A DNA stretch of 40,389 bases, taken from contig JAHQWC010000035.1 of the NCBI GenBank assembly GCA_019634025.1, forward strand, positions 1 to 40,389, given 5' to 3'. The stretch comes from Vampirovibrio sp. (GTDB taxonomy: Bacteria > Cyanobacteriota > Vampirovibrionia > Vampirovibrionales > Vampirovibrionaceae). Under the pieces are notes generated by a model. The model saw only the letters and a program-made list of their open reading frames with translations. It did not search any database and was not told the origin of the DNA. Shown here one piece after another: positions 10,686 to 31,908 of the stretch. The position numbers and the translations under genes are program-made. Each line of letters begins with the position of its first letter. Positions within the stretch are counted from its first letter, which is position 1.

Positions 10686-13463
10686 TTAAATCCTGCCGAC
10701 TAATTCAGGATGTTGAGCAAACTCGTCAGCCGCTATCCAACCCTGACTTGCCCGGTAGCGATACAGAGGCTTGTCACTCTCATAATCAATGGCCATCAGG
10801 TGAATCCACTCGTTATCGCACAGCTGTTTCAGCACAGGCTGCCGCTCAACAATATCCAGAATGCGTTGCCGGGGCGCTTCAATGGCGACAAATAGCCGTA
10901 ACGGTTCATGGTAAGTCAGCTCCCCCTGCGCCATAGACTGAATAGGCAGTCCTGTTCGCAAATCGCTTTGGGGACCAGCCATAATGCCGACACGCCCGAC
11001 CACATTGTGATAAACCTTGCTGCCGCTTCCGTAAATATCGGGATCGGTGGCCGAAAAATAATGTTCGGCGTTAATCCACTGACCCACCACCATGGGGCCC
11101 ATTAAAATGCCTTCCAGCAGAGCGCCGGTGGGATCCAGCCGGTAATCATGGGAATTGAGAAAGGCCCTGCCTTCCAGGTTTAAGTCTTGGGTCAGGGTGC
11201 GCCGGCCAATAATAAATGAAGCGTTGCCTGATAGCCCCCACTCCGGACGGGTTTCACTCCAGTCGCCGGATCTGCGACGGGCTTCCTGGACTGCACCAGA
11301 CGGTGATACGTCTTTATCCACGCCCGGCAGACGCAGGCATCGCTCCAGATTATTCTTCACCGCCGCTTTTTGCAGGTCTGCCTGCAAGCGTTTGACATCC
11401 TCGCGGTGGGTCTCGGGCAGATCTTCCAGATCATACAAGTCCACCGCATCGGTGGTGGTGTTGTGCACGCCGCCAATAAAATGTGTGTCGTCTGGAATCA
11501 CAATGCCGTTTTTCGCCAGGGCCTGCCGAATATTTGTTTTGTTGGCAATGGCCGCAAACAGCCGGGCATTGGGCTCGCCTGAATTACCACCGCAGGCGCC
11601 GCAGTTCAGGGCGGCGTCAAATGGGTTGTTGTCTGACATACTGGTGTGCCCGCCCACAATGACCAGACGGCCAAAGTTCTCCGTCAGACCCATGGTTCGC
11701 AGGGCCCCTTCAATGCTGGCGATTTGTTTTTCCTCGCTCAACCCGCGTCCTGCATCGTCTTCATCGGCAGTCATTTTAGTGATGACCGGTGGGGCAATCA
11801 TCTTGCCAATCCGCTCATTCCATTGACGGTAGATGCCGGGAAAAAAGGTGCGCTCAATCAGATGCCATCCAAAAAACCAGCCAATAGACTCCACCATGAT
11901 GTAGGGTGTCAGCACATGGCTTTTCAGGTCGTGCAGGGTGTCGTGCAGCATATGAAAAAATTTAACGCCGGCGTTATGGGCGGCTTCCCCGTTATCCTGG
12001 CCGTCCCGGACAACCTCGTGAACGGTATAAGCAGGCTTGAGGATGGCGGGGCACTGATCGGTTTCGTGGTGGTGGTCTAGCGCCTGGCAGCTGATGGGAA
12101 TACCAAAAAATCCGGCAAACCCGATGGTTTCATAGTTGTCCACAGACTCCAGGTTTCGCCGGAACGGTTCTGAACGGACATCAATACAAAACATGAGCTG
12201 CGCCAGGGGCCGGCTTTTTTGCGAGTCATCCGGCTGATTAGAAGCGGCTGTTTGAATCTTGCCAATCAGGTCTTGGTGGTATCCGGCCTCGTAAGCATTC
12301 AGCCAGATCGGCCCGTGGTCTGATTCTGGAAATGCATCCAGCCATGACAATAATTGCTGCAGCTGGTCGTCGGTGGCCGCTTCAAGTTTATTTTGCGATA
12401 CTCCAAGCACATTGGCCAGCGTATTCAGCCGCCAGGCTGCCGCCAGCCGGGCATGTTCTGATGTGCCGGAATACGTGGCCTGATTGTGTTGGATATGCGA
12501 GACAATGGTGGTATACGTCCCGTCAATGCCAAGTCTGGTTCGGCAGGTTTGCTGGACCAGTTCTTTTTCGTAAAACAGACGCACGGCAAGATACTGGATT
12601 AAATCAATGGAGTGCGCTTTTTGCCAAGGGTATTCGGGATTTTCGGAACGCCAATGGATAAAGCTTGCCCAGCCGTATAAGGCCGTTAGGTGATGGGACA
12701 GGTAATCTTGCCGAAGATCTTCTGGAATGGCGAGCGAGTCAAGATGTTGCAGCAGCGCTTTTTCCGGTGATTCCGGCAGTGCGTTGATTTTGTTGCCGCT
12801 GTCCTGAATGCCACAAGGTGACCATTCTTTTGACGCCAACCGCCGCCAGGCGGCATAAAAGCCTTTTTCGCGATGAGGCATGGGCCAGGACGCCTGCCCT
12901 TCATCCATAAAGGCTTCGCACCACTTGATCACTTCGCGATCAATCTGCCAGACCAAATCAGTGTTTAAGAACTGATCGCACCAAGCCGCCGGAGTCATCT
13001 CACGCGCGACAACGGTTGTGTTGTCACCTGGCTCAGCCTTAATGTTGAGCTTTTTTGCCAACGAACGAATTGCGCGACTGTTGGGCAGGCGGTCAACCAA
13101 TGCGGGAACAGCCTGATCCAACGGCGGGGTAATGCCTTCCAGCAGGTGAGCCCGGAGAACCTCTGCATGGCGGACCGTTTGTCCGCCCAGATCTATTGTT
13201 GCGTCTTGAGCTACGGATTGAACTGCCGTGTCCAGTTGTGCAGAAGTAATTCGCCCGTTTTTGACCAGCTTTCGGTACATCTCGTTGGGCAAATAGCCCC
13301 GTCCGCCAATAAACCGGCGAGCGACGGCAGTAGCCTCGTGAAACGGATAGGTTTCCAAACTGCGGATGGGATTGTGGTGCACAAAGGTGGTCATGGGCCA
13401 GTAGTGGGCAATGACCACACTGGCTTGATGTACTAATGCATGAAGATCTGTTGCTGAAGCCAT
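10686..13463 (-). CDS. dabA: Inorganic carbon uptake subunit DabA (DUF2309)
   Basis: This is the cytoplasmic, zinc-binding partner of a DAB-type dissolved inorganic carbon pump. It resembles a beta-carbonic anhydrase site and is thought to hydrate CO2 in one direction, driven by the membrane subunit. At 925 residues it has family-typical length. The four expected metal/active-site residues are all present: Cys426 and Asp428 in LMFCIDVRSEPFRR, His606 in VIVGGHTSMSDNNPF and Cys621 in AALNCGACGGNSGEPNAR. The ATG at 13463 overlaps the stop codon of the dabB gene as TAATG, showing translational coupling. The function in H. neapolitanus and some other bacteria is established; here it is inferred from the residues and the partner gene. 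Confidence 0.93.
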   Translation of the reverse strand: MASATDLHALVHQASVVIAHYWPMTTFVHHNPIRSLETYPFHEATAVARRFIGGRGYLPNEMYRKLVKNGRITSAQLDTAVQSVAQDATIDLGGQTVRHAEVLRAHLLEGITPPLDQAVPALVDRLPNSRAIRSLAKKLNIKAEPGDNTTVVAREMTPAAWCDQFLNTDLVWQIDREVIKWCEAFMDEGQASWPMPHREKGFYAAWRRLASKEWSPCGIQDSGNKINALPESPEKALLQHLDSLAIPEDLRQDYLSHHLTALYGWASFIHWRSENPEYPWQKAHSIDLIQYLAVRLFYEKELVQQTCRTRLGIDGTYTTIVSHIQHNQATYSGTSEHARLAAAWRLNTLANVLGVSQNKLEAATDDQLQQLLSWLDAFPESDHGPIWLNAYEAGYHQDLIGKIQTAASNQPDDSQKSRPLAQLMFCIDVRSEPFRRNLESVDNYETIGFAGFFGIPISCQALDHHHETDQCPAILKPAYTVHEVVRDGQDNGEAAHNAGVKFFHMLHDTLHDLKSHVLTPYIMVESIGWFFGWHLIERTFFPGIYRQWNERIGKMIAPPVITKMTADEDDAGRGLSEEKQIASIEGALRTMGLTENFGRLVIVGGHTSMSDNNPFDAALNCGACGGNSGEPNARLFAAIANKTNIRQALAKNGIVIPDDTHFIGGVHNTTTDAVDLYDLEDLPETHREDVKRLQADLQKAAVKNNLERCLRLPGVDKDVSPSGAVQEARRRSGDWSETRPEWGLSGNASFIIGRRTLTQDLNLEGRAFLNSHDYRLDPTGALLEGILMGPMVVGQWINAEHYFSATDPDIYGSGSKVYHNVVGRVGIMAGPQSDLRTGLPIQSMAQGELTYHEPLRLFVAIEAPRQRILDIVERQPVLKQLCDNEWIHLMAIDYESDKPLYRYRASQGWIAADEFAQHPELVGRI

Positions 13464-16036
13464 TACATCCCTCCCGCTTTCCAGGCCATCGCCAATTCAG
13501 TCACCGTGGTGTTCAGCCAGTCATGGGGCATCAGGCACGGCGCAACCAGTAGCGCAATGACCAGGGCGAATACCGCAATCTCGGCAGGGCGAAGATCATC
13601 ATAACGAAGATCGTTGCGAGCTGGGCCAAACAGCAGATGCTGCATCAGTTTGAACAAATACCAGCACGCGGCAAACCAGGTGGCGATGATGACTGCCAAC
13701 CCGTAAGAGATGCCCGTTGCAGGGCTTAGCAAGATTCCCAAATACCCAAAGAAAAGCCCAAAAGGTGGCAGACCAACGGCGGCCATAATCAGCAAGCCCA
13801 TACACACCGCAAAACGGGGCATGGTGTCAAACAGGCCACCGATCTTTGTTAAATCCAAATCGCCGTAGCGGGCGCGCACCCGATCCCACAATAAAAACAA
13901 CCCGCCCCAAACCAGCGTAACGGTCCAGACATAGAATAAAGCCTCAGGTGAAATCGAGCCCGTCTGCGCCACATACCACCAGAATATGGAATAGACCGCA
14001 ATGCCGCCATACGCCAGCAGCCGGGTGACCTGTATTTGTGACAGCGCTTTTAGCGATCCCCATAAGGCACCTGCGATGGCCAGTACGCTAATGGCCGGCA
14101 GTAACTCTTTTGGGAGTTGCGGCAGAAAAGACTTTATGGCGAACACCCCAATCAACGGCATCAATACGCACAACGTTGTCGCCAAAATTTTAGGTGCTTT
14201 TGTTAAGGCTGTGACATAAACACTATGAAGGGGAAATAAGGGAACCAATACGGCAGCGGCTATCAGGAATATAATGGTCTGTCCCGATAAGCCGGAAAAC
14301 CCGATTGTTTGTGTGTAGGCCACCCCTAAGGCAATTAGCGCCACTAGAATGGAAGAAACCGGTGACTGATTGATTTGTTTGCCCATTCGTTTTAGCGTGC
14401 CAAACAGTCTCAGGGCAAACCCGTCCAGATACAGACGATTCATAAAGAATAAATACAGCGTTTCTTTCAACCCACCGGAGTCAGTTGCGCCTGGTTTTGT
14501 TTGACGGCGGTACACCGAGAAGAACCAGCCCCCGGCAATAGAAAGGGCCAGCAGCGCGGCCAGTATCAAGAACAAGCCCGGCGGCAATTCAGCGGCTTCG
14601 AGATAGGCATTGGCGGTAGCCGCATTGGGAATTAAAAAGTGGGTAAACTGTTCGGCGGCAAAGAAATAAGCGGTGGCGATGAGTGCAATACCCACCAGCA
14701 TGACCCCTTTTGTCAGCAGCGGTTTGTTTAAACGGAAAAGGGTCAGCATGGCTTGCGAAGCGGTGACCCAGCTGAACAGAAATAAAATAAACAGCCCCTG
14801 AGACTCCATAAACGAAATGCCCAGCAGTTCGTGCACACCAACGGCAATGCCCAGCGGCGCCAGAAAAGACAGGATCAAGGCCACTCCCCAGCCTACTATG
14901 CCCAGCACAGAGGTGGAGTGTGATTGTATATGTTCCGGCTTTACCTGGTGGCTGCGGGCTTCCTGAATGCCCTTGGCGCAATTCAGGAAAATATCGGCCT
15001 TGAATAGCCCGTGGGCAATCAGGTGAAACACCGCCAACGGAAATGCGCCGAGACCGCATTCCATAATCATGTACCCCATTTGCCCAATAGTAGAGTAGCC
15101 CAGACTTTTTTTGATGTCGTTTTGCACCAGCATCATGCTGCTGCCTAAAATTGCTGTGGCCAAGCCAATCAACAAAACAAAATGCAGGGTTGTCGGACTT
15201 AATATGTACAGGGGCGCCAGCCGGGTGAGTAAAAAGCCGCCGGCGTTAATGCCACCGGAGTGAAGTAATGCGTGAATAGGCGTTGGGGCATATAACGCGT
15301 CCGGCAACCACATATGCAACGGAAACTGGGCGGACTTGCTCATGGCGCCGATAAAAATTAACAGGGTTACCGCCGTCGCGCCGGTAATTTGCAGGCCGGT
15401 GCCGAACACTGAAAAGACAGTCTGATCCACCGCCGCCAGCTCAAACAGTTGCGTCAACTGGACGGTGCCGTATAAATGGTAGGCAAGGGCGATTCCTGCC
15501 ACAAAGGCCATTTCTCCCGCCCGCAAGAAAATAAAGGTTCGAAAAGCGCCATTTGCCGTAGGTACATGGGCATAGTTATGAGACAGCAAACTGAGAAACC
15601 AGCCCGATACCTGCCAAAAGATAAAGAGGGTGATTAGATCGCCACTGGATACCATAAACAGTAGCATTGACACTTTAAGGGCCAGCAAGGTTTGATAGCG
15701 GTTTTGGTGCGGGTCTTGCTGAAGGTATCGGGTGGAGTAGCGGTACAGAATCGTTCCAAACAATGAGATAACCGTCATCATGACTGCGGCTAGCCGGTCA
15801 ATGGTTATGCCTGCCGTTGGTAAAAATTCCCAAGGCGTTGAAAACAGAACGAGGTGGATCGGCTCAGGACTTTGTATTGCGTTCCAGAGCAGCGGCAGCG
15901 AGGTTAAAAACCCGGCAAATATTATCCACCAGCCAAGTGTGTAACTTTTTTTACCTACATAATTATTAGGCAACGCCGTTAGCAATGCTGCAATGAATGG
16001 CGCCATTGGAACGAGTAACGGGTATAAACTCATCAT
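13463..16036 (-). CDS. dabB: Inorganic carbon uptake membrane subunit DabB, extended with a second antiporter-like half
   Basis: Residues 1 to about 550 form a complete NuoL/Mrp-type antiporter subunit with DabB signatures: SKSAQFPLHMWLPDA (about 233-247), PTPIHALLHSGGINAGGFLL (about 251-270) and KSLGYSTIGQMGYMIMECGL (about 310-329). These helices carry the lysines and histidines of a proton path that should power DabA. The protein then continues for about 270 residues. This extra part contains FPLH (602-605), TKAPKILATTLCVLMPL (613-629), QVTRLLAYGGI (669-679) and DTMPRFAVCMGLLIMAAVGL (738-757), which match the order of motifs in NuoM/NuoN-type subunits but with key residues changed. DabB proteins known to me are shorter. 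The start is ATG 16036; a TTG one codon upstream is also possible. The 3' end overlaps dabA. Confidence 0.88.
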   Translation of the reverse strand: MMSLYPLLVPMAPFIAALLTALPNNYVGKKSYTLGWWIIFAGFLTSLPLLWNAIQSPEPIHLVLFSTPWEFLPTAGITIDRLAAVMMTVISLFGTILYRYSTRYLQQDPHQNRYQTLLALKVSMLLFMVSSGDLITLFIFWQVSGWFLSLLSHNYAHVPTANGAFRTFIFLRAGEMAFVAGIALAYHLYGTVQLTQLFELAAVDQTVFSVFGTGLQITGATAVTLLIFIGAMSKSAQFPLHMWLPDALYAPTPIHALLHSGGINAGGFLLTRLAPLYILSPTTLHFVLLIGLATAILGSSMMLVQNDIKKSLGYSTIGQMGYMIMECGLGAFPLAVFHLIAHGLFKADIFLNCAKGIQEARSHQVKPEHIQSHSTSVLGIVGWGVALILSFLAPLGIAVGVHELLGISFMESQGLFILFLFSWVTASQAMLTLFRLNKPLLTKGVMLVGIALIATAYFFAAEQFTHFLIPNAATANAYLEAAELPPGLFLILAALLALSIAGGWFFSVYRRQTKPGATDSGGLKETLYLFFMNRLYLDGFALRLFGTLKRMGKQINQSPVSSILVALIALGVAYTQTIGFSGLSGQTIIFLIAAAVLVPLFPLHSVYVTALTKAPKILATTLCVLMPLIGVFAIKSFLPQLPKELLPAISVLAIAGALWGSLKALSQIQVTRLLAYGGIAVYSIFWWYVAQTGSISPEALFYVWTVTLVWGGLFLLWDRVRARYGDLDLTKIGGLFDTMPRFAVCMGLLIMAAVGLPPFGLFFGYLGILLSPATGISYGLAVIIATWFAACWYLFKLMQHLLFGPARNDLRYDDLRPAEIAVFALVIALLVAPCLMPHDWLNTTVTELAMAWKAGGM

Positions 16037-16039
16037 CAA

Positions 16040-16386
16040 TCAGCTATCCGCCCTATATTTTTCTGAATTTGGATCAAAGATCTCTCTCTGCCCTGTCGCT
16101 CAATAATTAAACTACCCATTTTCAGAACGTATGACGCTGTTATGGGTGACTAAACTCTATAGATGATCAAAGTATAACCAAAACTCATGCCACCACCAAG
16201 GTCTTTCAAACGAATTTAAGATATCTTTCGTCAGTACTCTTCCTAGCGAAGCGCTTACACCTGTTTATTCCTCGGTCATCAACTAATCTTATAACTTTCT
16301 TTTGGATGACATGTCACTTATATCACTTCACTATCAAAATAGAAAAATTTAGTCAGAACTTTAATAATATGAGAAATGATAGCGTG
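16040..16386. other. Intergenic region upstream of dabB, with a perfect palindrome
   Basis: These 347 bases separate the carbonic anhydrase gene from dabB (both minus strand). I see no gene. The only distinct element is the ten-base palindrome TGACATGTCA at 16307-16316, which could be an operator. The region is AT-rich and probably holds the dabBA promoter, but no hexamer pair was convincing. DAB operons in other bacteria are often controlled by LysR-type regulators; none is encoded nearby. Confidence 0.5.
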
Positions 16387-17061
16387 TTAACCGGCAGCCA
16401 GCTTTTGTAGCGGGCGAACATTATATACCCCGCCAGCAACATCCTTGGTTACGTTGATGAACTGGTCTTTTTTAGGACTGTAGGCCAGCATTTTACCGGT
16501 TTCAAACTCGTACATCCAACCGTGCAACCGAACTCCTCCGCTGGCTAATTTGGCTGCAACGGCAGGTAAGGTTTGCAGGTTATGGAGTTGCAGCAATACG
16601 TTTTGCTCAATGGCTTTTTGTAGCTTTTTTGCTTCCGGCATCCGGTGATACAGGGTATCTATCATCTGGCGAATGGGTTTAGCGTGTTCCAGCCAGGCTA
16701 GTACCGTGGGTAAGTCTTTGTGTTTAGCAGGGTCGTCCAACAACGCTTGGATGGCGCCGCACTGGCTGTGGCCACAGATTACAATGTCTTTGACGCCTAG
16801 TGCATTTACGGCAAACTCAATGGTGGCAGCCTGCCCAGTGACGCCGGCGCTTACCGGCGGTACAATGTTGCCGGCATTGCGTAGGACAAACAGATCGCCG
16901 GGTTGCATTTGGGTAATGAGGTTGGGTGCAATCCGGGAGTCGGAACACGTAATGAACAAGGCCTTTGGATGTTGGCCCTTGCTTAACTTTTGGAACAATG
17001 GTTTTTGGGTTTTATAAACGTTTTTTTTAAACTGACGGGTGCCGTCAATCAGTTCTTTCAT
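16387..17061 (-). CDS. Beta-class carbonic anhydrase
   Basis: The enzyme interconverts CO2 and bicarbonate with a zinc ion. The zinc ligands and catalytic dyad of beta-carbonic anhydrases are present: Cys39, Asp41 and Arg43 in FITCSDSRI, and His98 and Cys101 in GHSQCGAI. FVLRNAGNIVPP (about 58-69), also diagnostic, lies between them. The length of 224 residues is typical. The reading frame remains open upstream to 17133, but the family normally begins as here (MKELIDGTRQF), so the ATG at 17061 is preferred although its ribosome-binding site is weak. No signal peptide is seen, so the enzyme is cytoplasmic. It lies upstream of dabB-dabA on the same strand, which supports a joint role in supplying inorganic carbon. 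Confidence 0.93.
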   Translation of the reverse strand: MKELIDGTRQFKKNVYKTQKPLFQKLSKGQHPKALFITCSDSRIAPNLITQMQPGDLFVLRNAGNIVPPVSAGVTGQAATIEFAVNALGVKDIVICGHSQCGAIQALLDDPAKHKDLPTVLAWLEHAKPIRQMIDTLYHRMPEAKKLQKAIEQNVLLQLHNLQTLPAVAAKLASGGVRLHGWMYEFETGKMLAYSPKKDQFINVTKDVAGGVYNVRPLQKLAAG

Positions 17062-17235
17062 CACTAAATTTACCCATGTATGAGATTGGATGCTTAAGGC
17101 ACACACTTTAACACGAATGTAGTGGGCACCCATAAGGTGTTTGAGGATTTTAACCGCTTCAGGTACACTAATAGTAGATTATGTGGGGAATAACTCGGGT
17201 GCTTTCATCCGTTTTAAAACAATTTCCCAGCAGAT

Positions 17236-18666
17236 ATGAGAGGTAATGCAACGGAAATGGATATGTCGTTTGTCTTTGGCATCGTGGGCATCATAATTGG
17301 CCTGTTCATCGGTTGGCTATTGGCAGGACGTCAGGCAGAGCAGAAACACCGGCAAATTCAAACGGATCATCAACACCTGGTGGAGCAGGATATCCGCAAA
17401 CAATCTGAATTGGCTGCGGCTAAAACCCAGTTAGACGCACTTGCCCTCCAGCAGACTGAAGGTTCGCTCGAGCTGGAAAAAACCCGCCTACAGGCGGCAG
17501 AGCTTCAGGCGCAAAAAGCAGCGGTAGAAAGCCGACTGACGACGCTACAAGAAGAGCAGGTAAAGCAGGAAACGTTGCGTAAAAAAGAGTTTGAAGCCTT
17601 TATGCTGAAGCAGCTGGATACCTTAAAGCAAAACTTTGAGGAAAAGGCTCATAACGAGCATCAGGAGAACCAGGAACGCCTGGATGAGAAGATGAAAAAT
17701 CTGCTGAAGCCGCTTACGGAAATTATTGAGGAGTATCAGGAAAAGGTAGAGCAGGTAGAAAAAGAGCATCACACCAGCACAGAGTTGATTCGGGTGGATT
17801 TGAAGCGGGTGGTGGATACCAACACCAAGGTTTATTCGGCCCTTAGCACCAATAAAGGCCGGGGCGACTGGGGGGAATTGCAGCTCATCCGGCTTTTGGA
17901 AGAGTCCGGCTTGCACGAAGGGACGGGGTATAAAAAACAAACCGCCTTTGCTGAAGGCAAAAAACGTCCGGACGTGCAGGTGTTTTTCCCCGATGGGCGA
18001 TCCATGTTTATTGATGCCAAGACCATTCAGTTGGATTTGAATCAGGAAGACGATGGGACGGAAGAGGCGTTTGAACAGAAAAAGCAGCGACACCTCACCT
18101 CGTTAAAATCTGCAGTGAAAGATCTGGTGGGCAAAGATTACCAGACCGAAGTGTCCCATGCGTCGGACTATATTATTCTCTACGTCCCGGTAGAAAGCAT
18201 GCTGGCGTATGCCTCTTTGGCAGATCCTGAATTGCTGAACTGGGCGTATCGCCAGCGGGTGATATTGGCCAGTCCGTTGATTGTGATGGCGATTTTGGGG
18301 ATGGTGCACCGCACATGGCAAAATGCTCAACTGTCTAAAGAGGCGGATACCATCCGAGACCTGGGGAAAGACTTGTATAAGCAGGCTAACACCCTGGTCG
18401 AGCGCTTCCAAAAACTGGGTCGGGCGATGGGGACCTTGAACACGGCCTATCAGGATACTTGGACATCACTGGACGGGAACCAGGGGCTGACCAAAAAAGT
18501 GAAAAAACTGGCAGATTATGGCTGTCAGGATGGAAAACCCTTGCCGGAGACGGTGTATCGGCCAGAGAATTTAATGGAAACCAAAGAGCCATTAGAAGAA
18601 TCTAGACAAGGGTATCAGAGGGAACAGGGCAAAGAAAAACCTGTTGTTATTAATTCTTCAAACTGA
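17236..18666 (+). CDS. rmuC: DNA recombination protein RmuC homologue
   Basis: The 476-residue protein has an N-terminal membrane helix (about 10-30), a long coiled coil rich in Gln, Glu, Lys and Ala (about 35-205), then the RmuC domain with a PD-(D/E)XK-like core: GDWGELQLIRLLEESGL, KRPDVQVFFPDGRSMFIDAK and ESMLAYASLADPELL. RmuC limits DNA rearrangements at inverted repeats in E. coli, and its exact biochemical action is not settled. The tail (about 425-476) is charged and probably disordered. The start could be ATG 17236, 17257 or 17263; none has an ideal ribosome-binding site. Its last nine bases overlap the end of the convergent orphan gene. Confidence 0.9.
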   Translation: MRGNATEMDMSFVFGIVGIIIGLFIGWLLAGRQAEQKHRQIQTDHQHLVEQDIRKQSELAAAKTQLDALALQQTEGSLELEKTRLQAAELQAQKAAVESRLTTLQEEQVKQETLRKKEFEAFMLKQLDTLKQNFEEKAHNEHQENQERLDEKMKNLLKPLTEIIEEYQEKVEQVEKEHHTSTELIRVDLKRVVDTNTKVYSALSTNKGRGDWGELQLIRLLEESGLHEGTGYKKQTAFAEGKKRPDVQVFFPDGRSMFIDAKTIQLDLNQEDDGTEEAFEQKKQRHLTSLKSAVKDLVGKDYQTEVSHASDYIILYVPVESMLAYASLADPELLNWAYRQRVILASPLIVMAILGMVHRTWQNAQLSKEADTIRDLGKDLYKQANTLVERFQKLGRAMGTLNTAYQDTWTSLDGNQGLTKKVKKLADYGCQDGKPLPETVYRPENLMETKEPLEESRQGYQREQGKEKPVVINSSN

Positions 18667-19149
18667 TCGAGACTTACGATCAGGTCCTACTGGGATTCCT
18701 AGTCGTAAACAGGCTTTGGCTAAAAATGTATAATTTTTGTATATCTCCCCTCTTAGTCTAGGGTCGCCTATTAATGCATTTAAGCTAGCTCCATTACTAA
18801 AATCTCCTTGATCTCTACGCGCTGCAAGATATCGAATGCTGCTTTTCCGAAGTGGTATGCTTCGTGCAGAAATTCTCCTTTGGCTAGAACGAGATCTAAT
18901 TCCCTGCATAGGTTGACCGGTATCTTGTGTTGTAAAAGCTACAATATCTTTGGCAAATTTGTATAAAGACTTGGCTGTTACCTGACTTCTTAGGCCGGAA
19001 TCGCCCATAAATCTAGATAAATTTACAGGTTTATCGATCCCCTGTCTGCTGATATGTTGCAGCAGCATTCGCCGGGCATGAGCGTCTATTGGATTGGGCC
19101 GCCGGTATCCAAACCGAATTGGTAAGTATTGACCTGTGTTTATAAGCAT
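18658..19149 (-). CDS. Arg-rich orphan protein, unknown
   Basis: I do not recognise this 163-residue basic protein. Arg- and Ser-rich stretches dominate the middle (IRSRSSQRRISARSIPLRKS, about 82-101). Both ends carry short basic motifs (FGYRRPNPID, VGPDRKSRSV). No signal peptide or membrane helix is seen. Codon use (AGA, ATA, CTA, TTA) departs from rmuC beside it and resembles the orphans at 8704-8976 and 23270-23950. The ATG at 19149 lacks a strong ribosome-binding site. The frame is long and has reasonable protein composition, so I consider it real, perhaps lineage-specific or acquired. It overlaps the end of rmuC by nine bases. Confidence 0.6.
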   Translation of the reverse strand: MLINTGQYLPIRFGYRRPNPIDAHARRMLLQHISRQGIDKPVNLSRFMGDSGLRSQVTAKSLYKFAKDIVAFTTQDTGQPMQGIRSRSSQRRISARSIPLRKSSIRYLAARRDQGDFSNGASLNALIGDPRLRGEIYKNYTFLAKACLRLGIPVGPDRKSRSV

Positions 19150-29572: not shown

Positions 29573-30661
29573 TTATTTTTTGGCGTTGTGCCAATTGTGT
29601 AGGGCTGCCTGAAGTTGGGAAGAGAGGAAAGGGGATTGGGAAGCAGGAAGAGCCTGAGAGCCTTTTTGATGAGGGGGCTTGGGCGAAGACGAAAGCTCCT
29701 CCGGTGGCGGTTCATTTTTATGCAGCCAGTATGTGTGAAAGGGGAACGCCTGTTTTTGCTGCCAATGGGCAGATTGGCGGTTTGTACGAACGCTGGAGCG
29801 GTACAACAGCGCCTGGTGAACCCCTGCTTTGAAATCCGAAGTATGGGGTTCTGAAGGCGCAATACCTAGCGCCATGGTCCGGTTATTCATAAAAACAATC
29901 GGTACCGTACGCTGGCCATTACTGTCAGATAAAGGCACCTCTACCGTATAAGGGTCTAGTTTTGGGCCTTGGTGAGAAGGTTTCACATTATACCCATCCG
30001 ACTGTGCGGTTGAATAATGGTGAAATACGTTCCTGAATTTTTGATGGGTGTCTTCCAGGTACTGAGGAAAGTCCATCAACCGGTATTCCGCCCCTTTAAC
30101 ATTTTTGTAGGGCCCAACACTCACAGCAGAAATCACGTCATCGGCAGAAATGCTAGGAGTACTTGGTATAGGAAACTTAAGGTAATGAGTGCTTTCAGGA
30201 GTCTCTACGGGTTGATCATGGTCTGGCGTGGCTCGGGCCTGCTCAATGGTCATCTTATGTACCAAAAAATCTTTCCGGGCCGTTCCTGGATAATAGTTTT
30301 GGTGAATGTTTTTCCAAACACCATCAAACAGCTCATCCTGGAAAGCGTGGATCTTCTCAAAGCCTTTTGAACCCTGTTTGTATTCAAAGTTTTGGATGTA
30401 ATTGGTGATACCGTTCAGAACAATAGCCCGGGGGTCTTTCAGCTCGGACTCGCTGACATGACGGGTGACGGTGTCAATCAGGAATTGGGTGGGAGATAAG
30501 TCGCCCTTAGGGCTGACAGTAACGTCCCTGCCTTCATGGAGTTGATAGTTGAATGCCGGGTGGCTTTTAAGCTCTTTGCCTTTTAAGCCAAAGCGGGGAT
30601 CAGTTGTATGAATATGGAAGGTGGCCTGGGGTGTGGACCTGAGAACGGAAGATACATGCAT
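29573..30661 (-). CDS. Unknown protein, paralogue of the gene at 30770-31855
   Basis: I do not recognise the family of this 362-residue protein, which is clearly homologous over its whole length to its neighbour. Shared blocks include the N-terminal M-H-V/I-S-x-VLRST, then PRFGLKG, the region PRAIVL(N/T)GITN, EYKQGS, FQDELFDGVWKNIHQ, and the C-terminal SPFLSSQLQAALHNWHNAKK. It has no signal peptide or membrane helix. The part before the conserved tail (about 315-342) is Pro/Ser-rich and likely flexible. A short N-terminal motif ending in FGLKG resembles leaders I have seen in proteins of Cyanobacteria relatives; that is only an impression. The ATG at 30661 has AAGG upstream, and a conserved promoter-like element lies 43 bases before it. 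Confidence 0.75.
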   Translation of the reverse strand: MHVSSVLRSTPQATFHIHTTDPRFGLKGKELKSHPAFNYQLHEGRDVTVSPKGDLSPTQFLIDTVTRHVSESELKDPRAIVLNGITNYIQNFEYKQGSKGFEKIHAFQDELFDGVWKNIHQNYYPGTARKDFLVHKMTIEQARATPDHDQPVETPESTHYLKFPIPSTPSISADDVISAVSVGPYKNVKGAEYRLMDFPQYLEDTHQKFRNVFHHYSTAQSDGYNVKPSHQGPKLDPYTVEVPLSDSNGQRTVPIVFMNNRTMALGIAPSEPHTSDFKAGVHQALLYRSSVRTNRQSAHWQQKQAFPFHTYWLHKNEPPPEELSSSPKPPHQKGSQALPASQSPFLSSQLQAALHNWHNAKK

Positions 30662-30703
30662 AGGGAAAGCCTTCTAAGATAATAACTGAATAGGGCTTGG
30701 GGC

Positions 30704-30717
30704 GATTGTATCATATT
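30704..30717 (-). promoter_or_regulatory. Promoter-like element shared by the paralogous pair (copy 1)
   Basis: The minus strand reads AATATGATACAATC, with TACAAT as a good -10 hexamer. The same element with one change lies at the matching place before the sister gene (31895-31908), 40-43 bases from each start codon. No strong -35 box is seen. Conservation against otherwise diverged flanks suggests function. Confidence 0.5.
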
Positions 30718-30769
30718 GCTGGAGGCTCTATAAGCATTTCACAACTCTCAAAATTTATATGTAGATGAG

Positions 30770-31855
30770 TTATTTTTTGGCGTTGTGCCAATTGTGAATC
30801 GCCGCCTGAAGCTGAGAAGATAGGAAAGGGGAAGGGGAAGCAGGAGAGGTATCAGAAAATTTACTTCCAGTCGGTGATTGAGATACGTCTGCTCCCTCAT
30901 CAGGCGGACGGTTGGTTTGATGCCAGAAATCATGATAGGCAAAGGGTTGAACTTGTTGCCAATGACTTGACTGCCGTTTTGGACGGACACTGGAACGATA
31001 GAGTAAAAGTTGATGGTGCCGGGAGCGAAAATCTTGAGCTAGAGGTTCAGTTGGGCCAAGTGCTTGGGCTATTTTACGGCCATTGACAAACAGAAGCGGA
31101 ACTTCAGGTTTTCCATGTTTATCTTTCACCGGAATATCTACAAGATACGGATCCAGCTTATCCCCTTGGTGTTCAGGTCTAACCAACCATCCATCGGTTT
31201 GTGCACTAGAAAGATGATGAAACACCTCTCTGAATTTGAAGCCTTTATCGGTTAAATACTGAGTGAAATCCATCAGTCGGAAGTTTCCGCCTTTTATGCC
31301 ACTCACAGGGCCAATGCTAATAGCATCAAAAGCATCGTCTGCAGGGAGGTGAGGTACGTGTGGAACAGGATATTTGACCGAACGTATACTTTCAGGCGCA
31401 TTAACCGGCTGCCTTTCTTCGTGCTGAGTTCGGCTATGCTCAACATTCACCTTGTGGATTAAGAAATCTTCGCGCCTTGTTTTAGGATAGTGAGACTGAT
31501 GAACATTTTGCCAAACGGCGTCAAAAAGCTTGTCTTGAAAGGCATGAATTTTTTGGAAGCCAGCAGAGCCTTGTTTGTATTCAAAGTTGTTGATGTGATT
31601 CGTAATTCCAGTCAGGACAATGGCACGAGGTTTATCTAAAGTCGTCTCACTAACGTTTTGAGTAACAAGGTCTATAAGAGCTTCAGTTGGACGAATATCC
31701 CCTTGAGCATCAATCAGTAAATCTCGGCCCTCTTGAAGTTGGTAATTATAGGCAGGGTGGCTCTTTAAAGCCTCACCTTTAAGTCCAAACCGAGGGACAG
31801 AGAATGGCTGGGAGGTTAATTGAGAGGTAGACCTGAGAACAGGGGATATATGCAT
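30770..31855 (-). CDS. Unknown protein, paralogue of the gene at 29573-30661
   Basis: The 361-residue protein is the sister of the gene next to it, in the same direction and separated by 108 bases. Matching blocks are MHISPVLRST, FGLKGEALKSHPAYNYQLQE, PRAIVLTGITNHINNFEYKQ, AFQDKLFDAVWQNVHQSHYP, GNFRLMDFTQYLTDKGFKF and the tail SPFLSSQLQAAIHNWHNAKK. It too lacks a signal peptide or membrane segment and has a Pro/Ser-rich stretch before the tail. Divergence is spread evenly, which indicates an old duplication with both copies under selection. The ATG at 31855 has AGGAGA before it. The longer frame to 32059 runs through the terminator and is rejected. The function is unknown. Confidence 0.75.
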   Translation of the reverse strand: MHISPVLRSTSQLTSQPFSVPRFGLKGEALKSHPAYNYQLQEGRDLLIDAQGDIRPTEALIDLVTQNVSETTLDKPRAIVLTGITNHINNFEYKQGSAGFQKIHAFQDKLFDAVWQNVHQSHYPKTRREDFLIHKVNVEHSRTQHEERQPVNAPESIRSVKYPVPHVPHLPADDAFDAISIGPVSGIKGGNFRLMDFTQYLTDKGFKFREVFHHLSSAQTDGWLVRPEHQGDKLDPYLVDIPVKDKHGKPEVPLLFVNGRKIAQALGPTEPLAQDFRSRHHQLLLYRSSVRPKRQSSHWQQVQPFAYHDFWHQTNRPPDEGADVSQSPTGSKFSDTSPASPSPFLSSQLQAAIHNWHNAKK

Positions 31856-31894: not shown

Positions 31895-31908
31895 GATTGT
31901 ATCACATT
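31895..31908 (-). promoter_or_regulatory. Promoter-like element shared by the paralogous pair (copy 2)
   Basis: The minus strand reads AATGTGATACAATC, differing in one base from copy 1. TACAAT is the likely -10 hexamer, 40 bases before the ATG. The presence of its own copy suggests that each paralogue has an independent promoter. Confidence 0.5.

Follow-up and report, generated by a model that had tools for sequence, protein, structure and literature searches.

We identified a tandem pair of genes that represents a lineage-specific, probably inactive branch of the 2-oxoglutarate (2OG) oxygenase fold, in a window (the whole stretch of DNA that was analysed) of 40,389 nucleotides from Vampirovibrio sp. 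Both predicted proteins start with a short leader ending in FG, which recurs on unrelated proteins. Our explanation of the whole, that the pair are dead 2OG-fold paralogs carried under a cleaved FG sorting leader, is one that we regard as fairly probable. The features of the window on which this explanation draws are listed in Table 1.

Table 1. Features of the gene pair and of one further FG-leader gene, in window positions.
Feature	Position	Strand	Length	Remarks
Copy A	29573-30661	minus	362 aa	predicted pseudo-oxygenase, 2OG dioxygenase fold
Copy B	30770-31855	minus	361 aa	predicted pseudo-oxygenase; modelled by AlphaFold
FG leader of copy A	30587-30661	minus	residues 1-25	ends PRFG before LKG
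FG leader of copy B	31784-31855	minus	residues 1-24	ends PRFG before LKG
C-terminal 20 residues of copy A	29576-29635	minus	20 residues	common to copy B only
C-terminal 20 residues of copy B	30773-30832	minus	20 residues	common to copy A only
Extended -10 promoter-like element of copy A	30704-30717	minus		AATATGATACAATC
Extended -10 promoter-like element of copy B	31895-31908	minus		AATGTGATACAATC
Unrelated FG-leader protein	18658-19149	minus	163 aa	MLINTGQYLPIRFG; no Pfam family

The pair of paralogous proteins of 361 and 362 residues described in an earlier note on this DNA is real: the two open reading frames, both on the minus strand, encode proteins that are 57% identical from end to end (E=2e-157). 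The dN between copies A and B was 0.36 and their synonymous sites were saturated, which indicates that both copies are old and under purifying selection. No match above noise to the pair was found in Pfam, NCBIfam or PHROG, and a search of the PDB sequences with the family profile gave zero matches. The family is therefore unrecognised by sequence, as had been noted, but not by fold, which is that of the Fe(II)/2OG dioxygenases. No evidence pointed to the structural role that had also been suggested for these proteins. Elsewhere in the window, positions 10686-17133 encode a DabA inorganic-carbon transporter subunit adjacent to a partner of the proton-antiporter family and to a beta carbonic anhydrase, and these genes sit in a lineage that appears non-photosynthetic. 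The source genome also encodes a collagen-like protein in which GNA triplets are repeated over a long stretch (L017:2259-3131).

The family is expanded as tandem arrays in the source genome, where ten full-length copies were found in four clusters: two copies in the window, a single one on C119, and tandem arrays of four on C98 and of three on C15. Two of the C98 copies, C98c and C98d, have GATATGGTCGTTCGTTTTACATTTTTAA in common in their upstream regions (L018:10100-11350), which suggests a fairly recent duplication. A homologue search of 382 genomes of the class returned no close homologues, and distant ones were recovered with the profile in G002, G004 and G010, three genomes of the same order as the source genome. 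The expectation of a lineage-restricted family with further copies was thus borne out. A contig scan of genomes with copy B as the query found no relative, and a weak first match in G046 was dropped, as it was absent from the later profile search.

The earlier note had proposed a scan of the genome for copies with the same leader and the same tail, and the two ends of the proteins gave opposite results. Alignment of the ten copies showed that RFGLK is invariant in all of them, after a variable N-terminal stretch, while the C-terminal tail was found only in the pair and is absent from the other eight copies. The last 20 residues of copies A and B match at 19 positions (SPFLSSQLQAA[L/I]HNWHNAKK). 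Where the two copies have identical residues, they also use the same codon at 19 of 24 positions of the tail block, vs 65 of 183 elsewhere in the gene, and this agreement, far above that of the rest of the gene, indicates that the tail was exchanged or constrained at the DNA level. Recent gene conversion looks to be the simplest account of the tail and fits better than the targeting or secretion signal that had been supposed there. As a signal common to the whole family, the tail was ruled out by its restriction to the pair.

The presence of a conserved promoter element before each gene was also proposed, and AATRTGATACAATC, which includes the extended -10 box TGnTACAAT, was indeed found 39-42 bases upstream of both ATGs and nowhere else in the 650 kb of the source genome that were scanned. 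The element is not private to the pair, however, since four of the eight other copies have a related form, GTGATATAA upstream of C98a, C98c and C98d and GTGTGATAAGAT upstream of C119, at about 47-70 bases from these copies. We thus consider it to be a promoter type.

The FG leader consists of about 10-60 residues, is poor in acidic residues, has no hydrophobic core and ends in FG, often as RFG or KFG. A hydrophobic core of the Sec type is absent from the N-termini of the pair, and the leaders surveyed below were selected for that absence. The distant homologues of the family start with RFGW, KFGW, LFGW or QFGW, and comparable leaders were seen on unrelated neighbouring proteins, namely an ankyrin protein (L045:632-1096, LRFGDG), a GDPD protein (L072:14283-15206, LYFGKK) and a pentapeptide protein (L054:4042-4773, VSFGSA). 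N-terminal motifs were therefore counted over 1.56 Mb from four genomes of the same family. Genes were called simply as longest ORFs and grouped into BLAST clusters, N-termini were counted only if they had no hydrophobic stretch and no more than one acidic residue, and the null was given by shuffles of the N-terminal 60 residues.

The results of these counts showed a moderate excess of FG: 54 clusters had an FG leader vs 32.9 +/- 4.9 in the shuffles of the four genomes, a signal that is diluted by the spurious ORFs among these crude calls. Among 397 dipeptides, RF ranked second and FG third, and FG ranked first in the source genome alone. The top tripeptide was RFG, found in 11 unrelated clusters vs 2.4 in the shuffles, and [RK]FG was found in 18 clusters vs 4.4. 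The FG excess was near chance, in smaller samples, in G011, which belongs to a third family of the order (f3), and in G018 and G020, which belong to other families of the class. RFGLK was rejected as a genome-wide motif because a degenerate DNA pattern for it matched members of the family only; the general motif is thus RFG or FG rather than FGLK.

Carriers of the leader with a Pfam assignment included ankyrin, GDPD and pentapeptide-repeat proteins, a Lon-like AAA+ protease, an S1/P1 nuclease, and SIS, NUDIX, inositol monophosphatase, S33 hydrolase, GNAT and TPR proteins. In the starch-synthase-like glycosyltransferase at L223:7738-9813, FFG is found about eight residues ahead of the catalytic domain. 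The Lon-like AAA+ protease (L077:13537-16779) is 1080 aa long and has a long extra N-terminal part in addition to its FG leader, and three FG-leader genes adjoin each other at L128:5719-9187 (NUDIX, inositol monophosphatase and one without a Pfam match). One inositol monophosphatase of the source genome (L184) has an FG leader while its paralog in the same genome (L198) and its relatives elsewhere are leaderless, which suggests that a duplicated gene acquired the leader. Because it recurs on unrelated proteins, the conserved leader of the pair is probably a targeting signal, as the earlier note had proposed. No description of an FG-type leader was found in the open-licence literature, and we know of no described class of signal that matches it.

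The position of FG relative to a mature N-terminus could be read in the S1/P1 nucleases. In these enzymes, the N-terminal Trp of the mature protein binds the zinc cluster (PMC11705217, PMC5201275), and they should not mature uncut since zinc is bound through a free N-terminal Trp. In nine S1/P1-nuclease homologues, which come from six genomes, five in the first family and one in the second, FG is directly followed by W/F/Y-x4-H (WWKKDH, WQGPQH, WFQSTH, FRSHTH, YMSSVH, WVDSLH, WAGHGH, WGAQSH and WGWNQH), a spacing which corresponds to the W1-x4-H6 register of the mature enzyme. The nuclease profile aligned the residue after FG to residue 1 of the crystallised plant endonuclease 2 (WGKEGHEIICKIA); the segment at residue 1 is weak alone and the significant match is the HxxxDxxxxxH part. 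One of the nucleases, used as a single query in a scan of the collection, matched its own record only. The nine homologues have the same Trp1-x4-His6 and HxxxDxxxxxH zinc-ligand spacing as the S1/P1 nucleases with a Sec signal peptide, but what stands before Trp1 is an FG leader that lacks a hydrophobic core, where those enzymes have a Sec signal peptide, and Trp1 is replaced by Phe or Tyr in two of the nine. The simplest reading of these alignments is that FG ends a leader that would be removed where other S1/P1 nucleases have their signal peptide.

Two points qualify this reading. The nine nucleases are homologous to each other, so that a single inheritance could account for their FG, and the oxygenase relatives also have Trp after FG (RFGW). 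On the supporting side, three GDPD homologues have FG at 4-6 residues ahead of the conserved GHRG, and six homologues in other genomes have no FG there. The FG leader resembles double-glycine leaders and transit peptides in that unrelated cargo proteins carry a short N-terminal segment whose end is conserved, but it ends in FG and not in GG, and no dedicated transporter was found adjoining the genes. It is also poor in acidic residues and lacks the helix pattern of double-glycine leaders. The proposed role of the FG leader would be that of a sorting presequence, removed directly after FG, which would take its cargo out of the cytoplasm via some exporter; we infer such cleavage and export, as well as any effect on partner or prey cells, from sequence. 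The broader claim, of a lineage-specific class of cut FG presequences that replaces Sec on zinc nucleases and was added to duplicated cytosolic enzymes and to dead 2OG oxygenases, is put forward tentatively, at somewhat less than an even chance.

Another reading of the same data takes the FG segment for a local structural element or a neutral extension, and the ten proteins for ordinary cytosolic, degenerate paralogs with an oxygenase fold. Several of the carriers are usually cytosolic enzymes (the inositol monophosphatase, SIS, Lon-like and NUDIX proteins), the dipeptide FG is common, and chance alone would be expected to give half of the FG-leader clusters. However, the leader recurs on unrelated folds, RFG tops all tripeptides, and FG abuts the expected mature N-terminus in the nucleases. 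In the family itself, the residues around FG are not conserved and residues 1-20 of the copy B model are disordered, which also speaks against this reading. We consider this explanation unlikely, and prefer that of a sorting leader.

Two candidate exporters of such a leader were rejected. VirB4 was absent, by our search, from the source genome (G000, 79% complete) and from G001, G002, G003, G005 and G010, and present in G004 (three loci) and G009; the genome of Vampirovibrio chlorellavorus (3.03 Mb) carries such systems on two plasmids and one contig (PMC4451040). The search for a contractile sheath found none in G000, G001, G003, G005 and G010, and the sheath was present in G002, G007 and G009. 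Neither VirB-type type IV secretion nor contractile injection explains the leader, because the genes of both are missing from most of the genomes that carry it.

The FlhA family was found in all 18 genomes of the order, and two full-length, clearly different FlhA genes were found in 16 of them. In the source genome these two genes (L224:1462-3591 and L225:7130-9235) are in two gene clusters which, when read by eye, place one of them amid fliP-, fliQ-, fliR- and flhB-like genes and the other close to genes for the flagellar rod and rings. The leader could thus mark substrates of type III export, for example by one of two FlhA-type systems, and would then not necessarily be cut. Type III signals are N-terminal, disordered and poor in acidic residues, and the make-up of the leader resembles theirs. 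However, family f3 (G011), in which the leader stays at chance level, has both FlhA genes as well, and type III signals normally stay uncleaved, at odds with the register of FG and Trp1 in the nucleases. A type III route for the FG leader is possible, though in our estimate improbable.

The fold of the family was predicted with AlphaFold, run on copy B with the ten-copy alignment. The model had a pLDDT of 81 and a pTM of 0.79, with very low confidence at residues 1-20 and most of 322-349. Comparison of this model with the PDB by Foldseek gave Fe(II)/2OG dioxygenases among the 50 matches listed (GlaH/CsiD, PlaO1, CarC, TauD, ScoE and AtsK, among others), with probabilities up to 0.99 and E values down to 4e-4. 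A model of the distant homologue L045:1123-2073 (pLDDT 68) matched CsiD, CarC, OrfP and clavaminate synthase with probabilities up to 1.00. The Foldseek TM-scores were low (0.25-0.41), so that a superfamily fold was assigned rather than a particular enzyme. On these models we placed the family in the predicted double-stranded beta-helix fold of the Fe(II)/2-oxoglutarate dioxygenases, with Foldseek probabilities up to 1.00 and low TM-scores.

Alignment of the distant homologues showed HxD in eight of eight and the distal His in all seven that reach that position; H-x-D followed by NN...H is the order expected for 2OG oxygenases. A conserved-looking Arg, a candidate for the one that binds 2OG, follows the distal His in several of them (NRTLY, PRTLY, KREYV and NRSYV), in a part where the alignment is uncertain. 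The distant homologues thus have the predicted fold and the HxD, GG, NN...H order in common with the group of CsiD, CarC, clavaminate synthase and TauD. The family differs from this group in having no sequence-level match to a Pfam family or a PDB chain, in the FG leader and in its ten copies in a single genome, and the pair of the window differs in having no triad.

The HxD position is occupied by SIS in copy A and by HLP in copy B, and the distal His is absent from both. Among the ten local copies, only L019:1596-2561 has the full triad (HFD and the distal His); L019:2640-3632 has kept HMD and lost the distal His, and the other local copies are without the full set. The loss of the triad makes the pair most likely inactive as oxygenases, and probably pseudo-oxygenases, which would bind something rather than oxidise it. 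That they still act as 2OG oxygenases by means of unusual metal ligands is very improbable: the dioxygenase fold is predicted, one local copy retains HFD and the distal His and all ten copies have an invariant Asp close to the motif, but with SIS or HLP in place of HxD and no distal His, neither copy A nor copy B has kept the triad.

As for where the leader would direct such proteins, it is hardly credible that it imitates a chloroplast transit peptide and sends them to the plastid of an algal partner: FGLK names a plant transit-peptide motif, transit peptides are poor in acidic residues and a cultured relative preys on Chlorella (PMC4451040), but FGLK is confined to the ten-copy family, the other carriers having FG only, and in algal RbcS transit peptides the motif cannot be clearly recognised (PMC5571161).

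That inactivated oxygenase-fold proteins have spread under an FG leader is already unusual. Should the FG leader prove to be a sorting signal that is cleaved, these bacteria, of a lineage that has been little studied, would have a route of export, or to a compartment, that is invisible to signal-peptide predictors, and the nucleases offer a ready test of cleavage after FG. If FG presequences are indeed cut as a class, this would be an undescribed pathway of export or compartment targeting with its own peptidase. The leader alone would then list the cargo, that is, candidate surface proteins or effectors, of bacteria whose probable cultured relative preys on algae.
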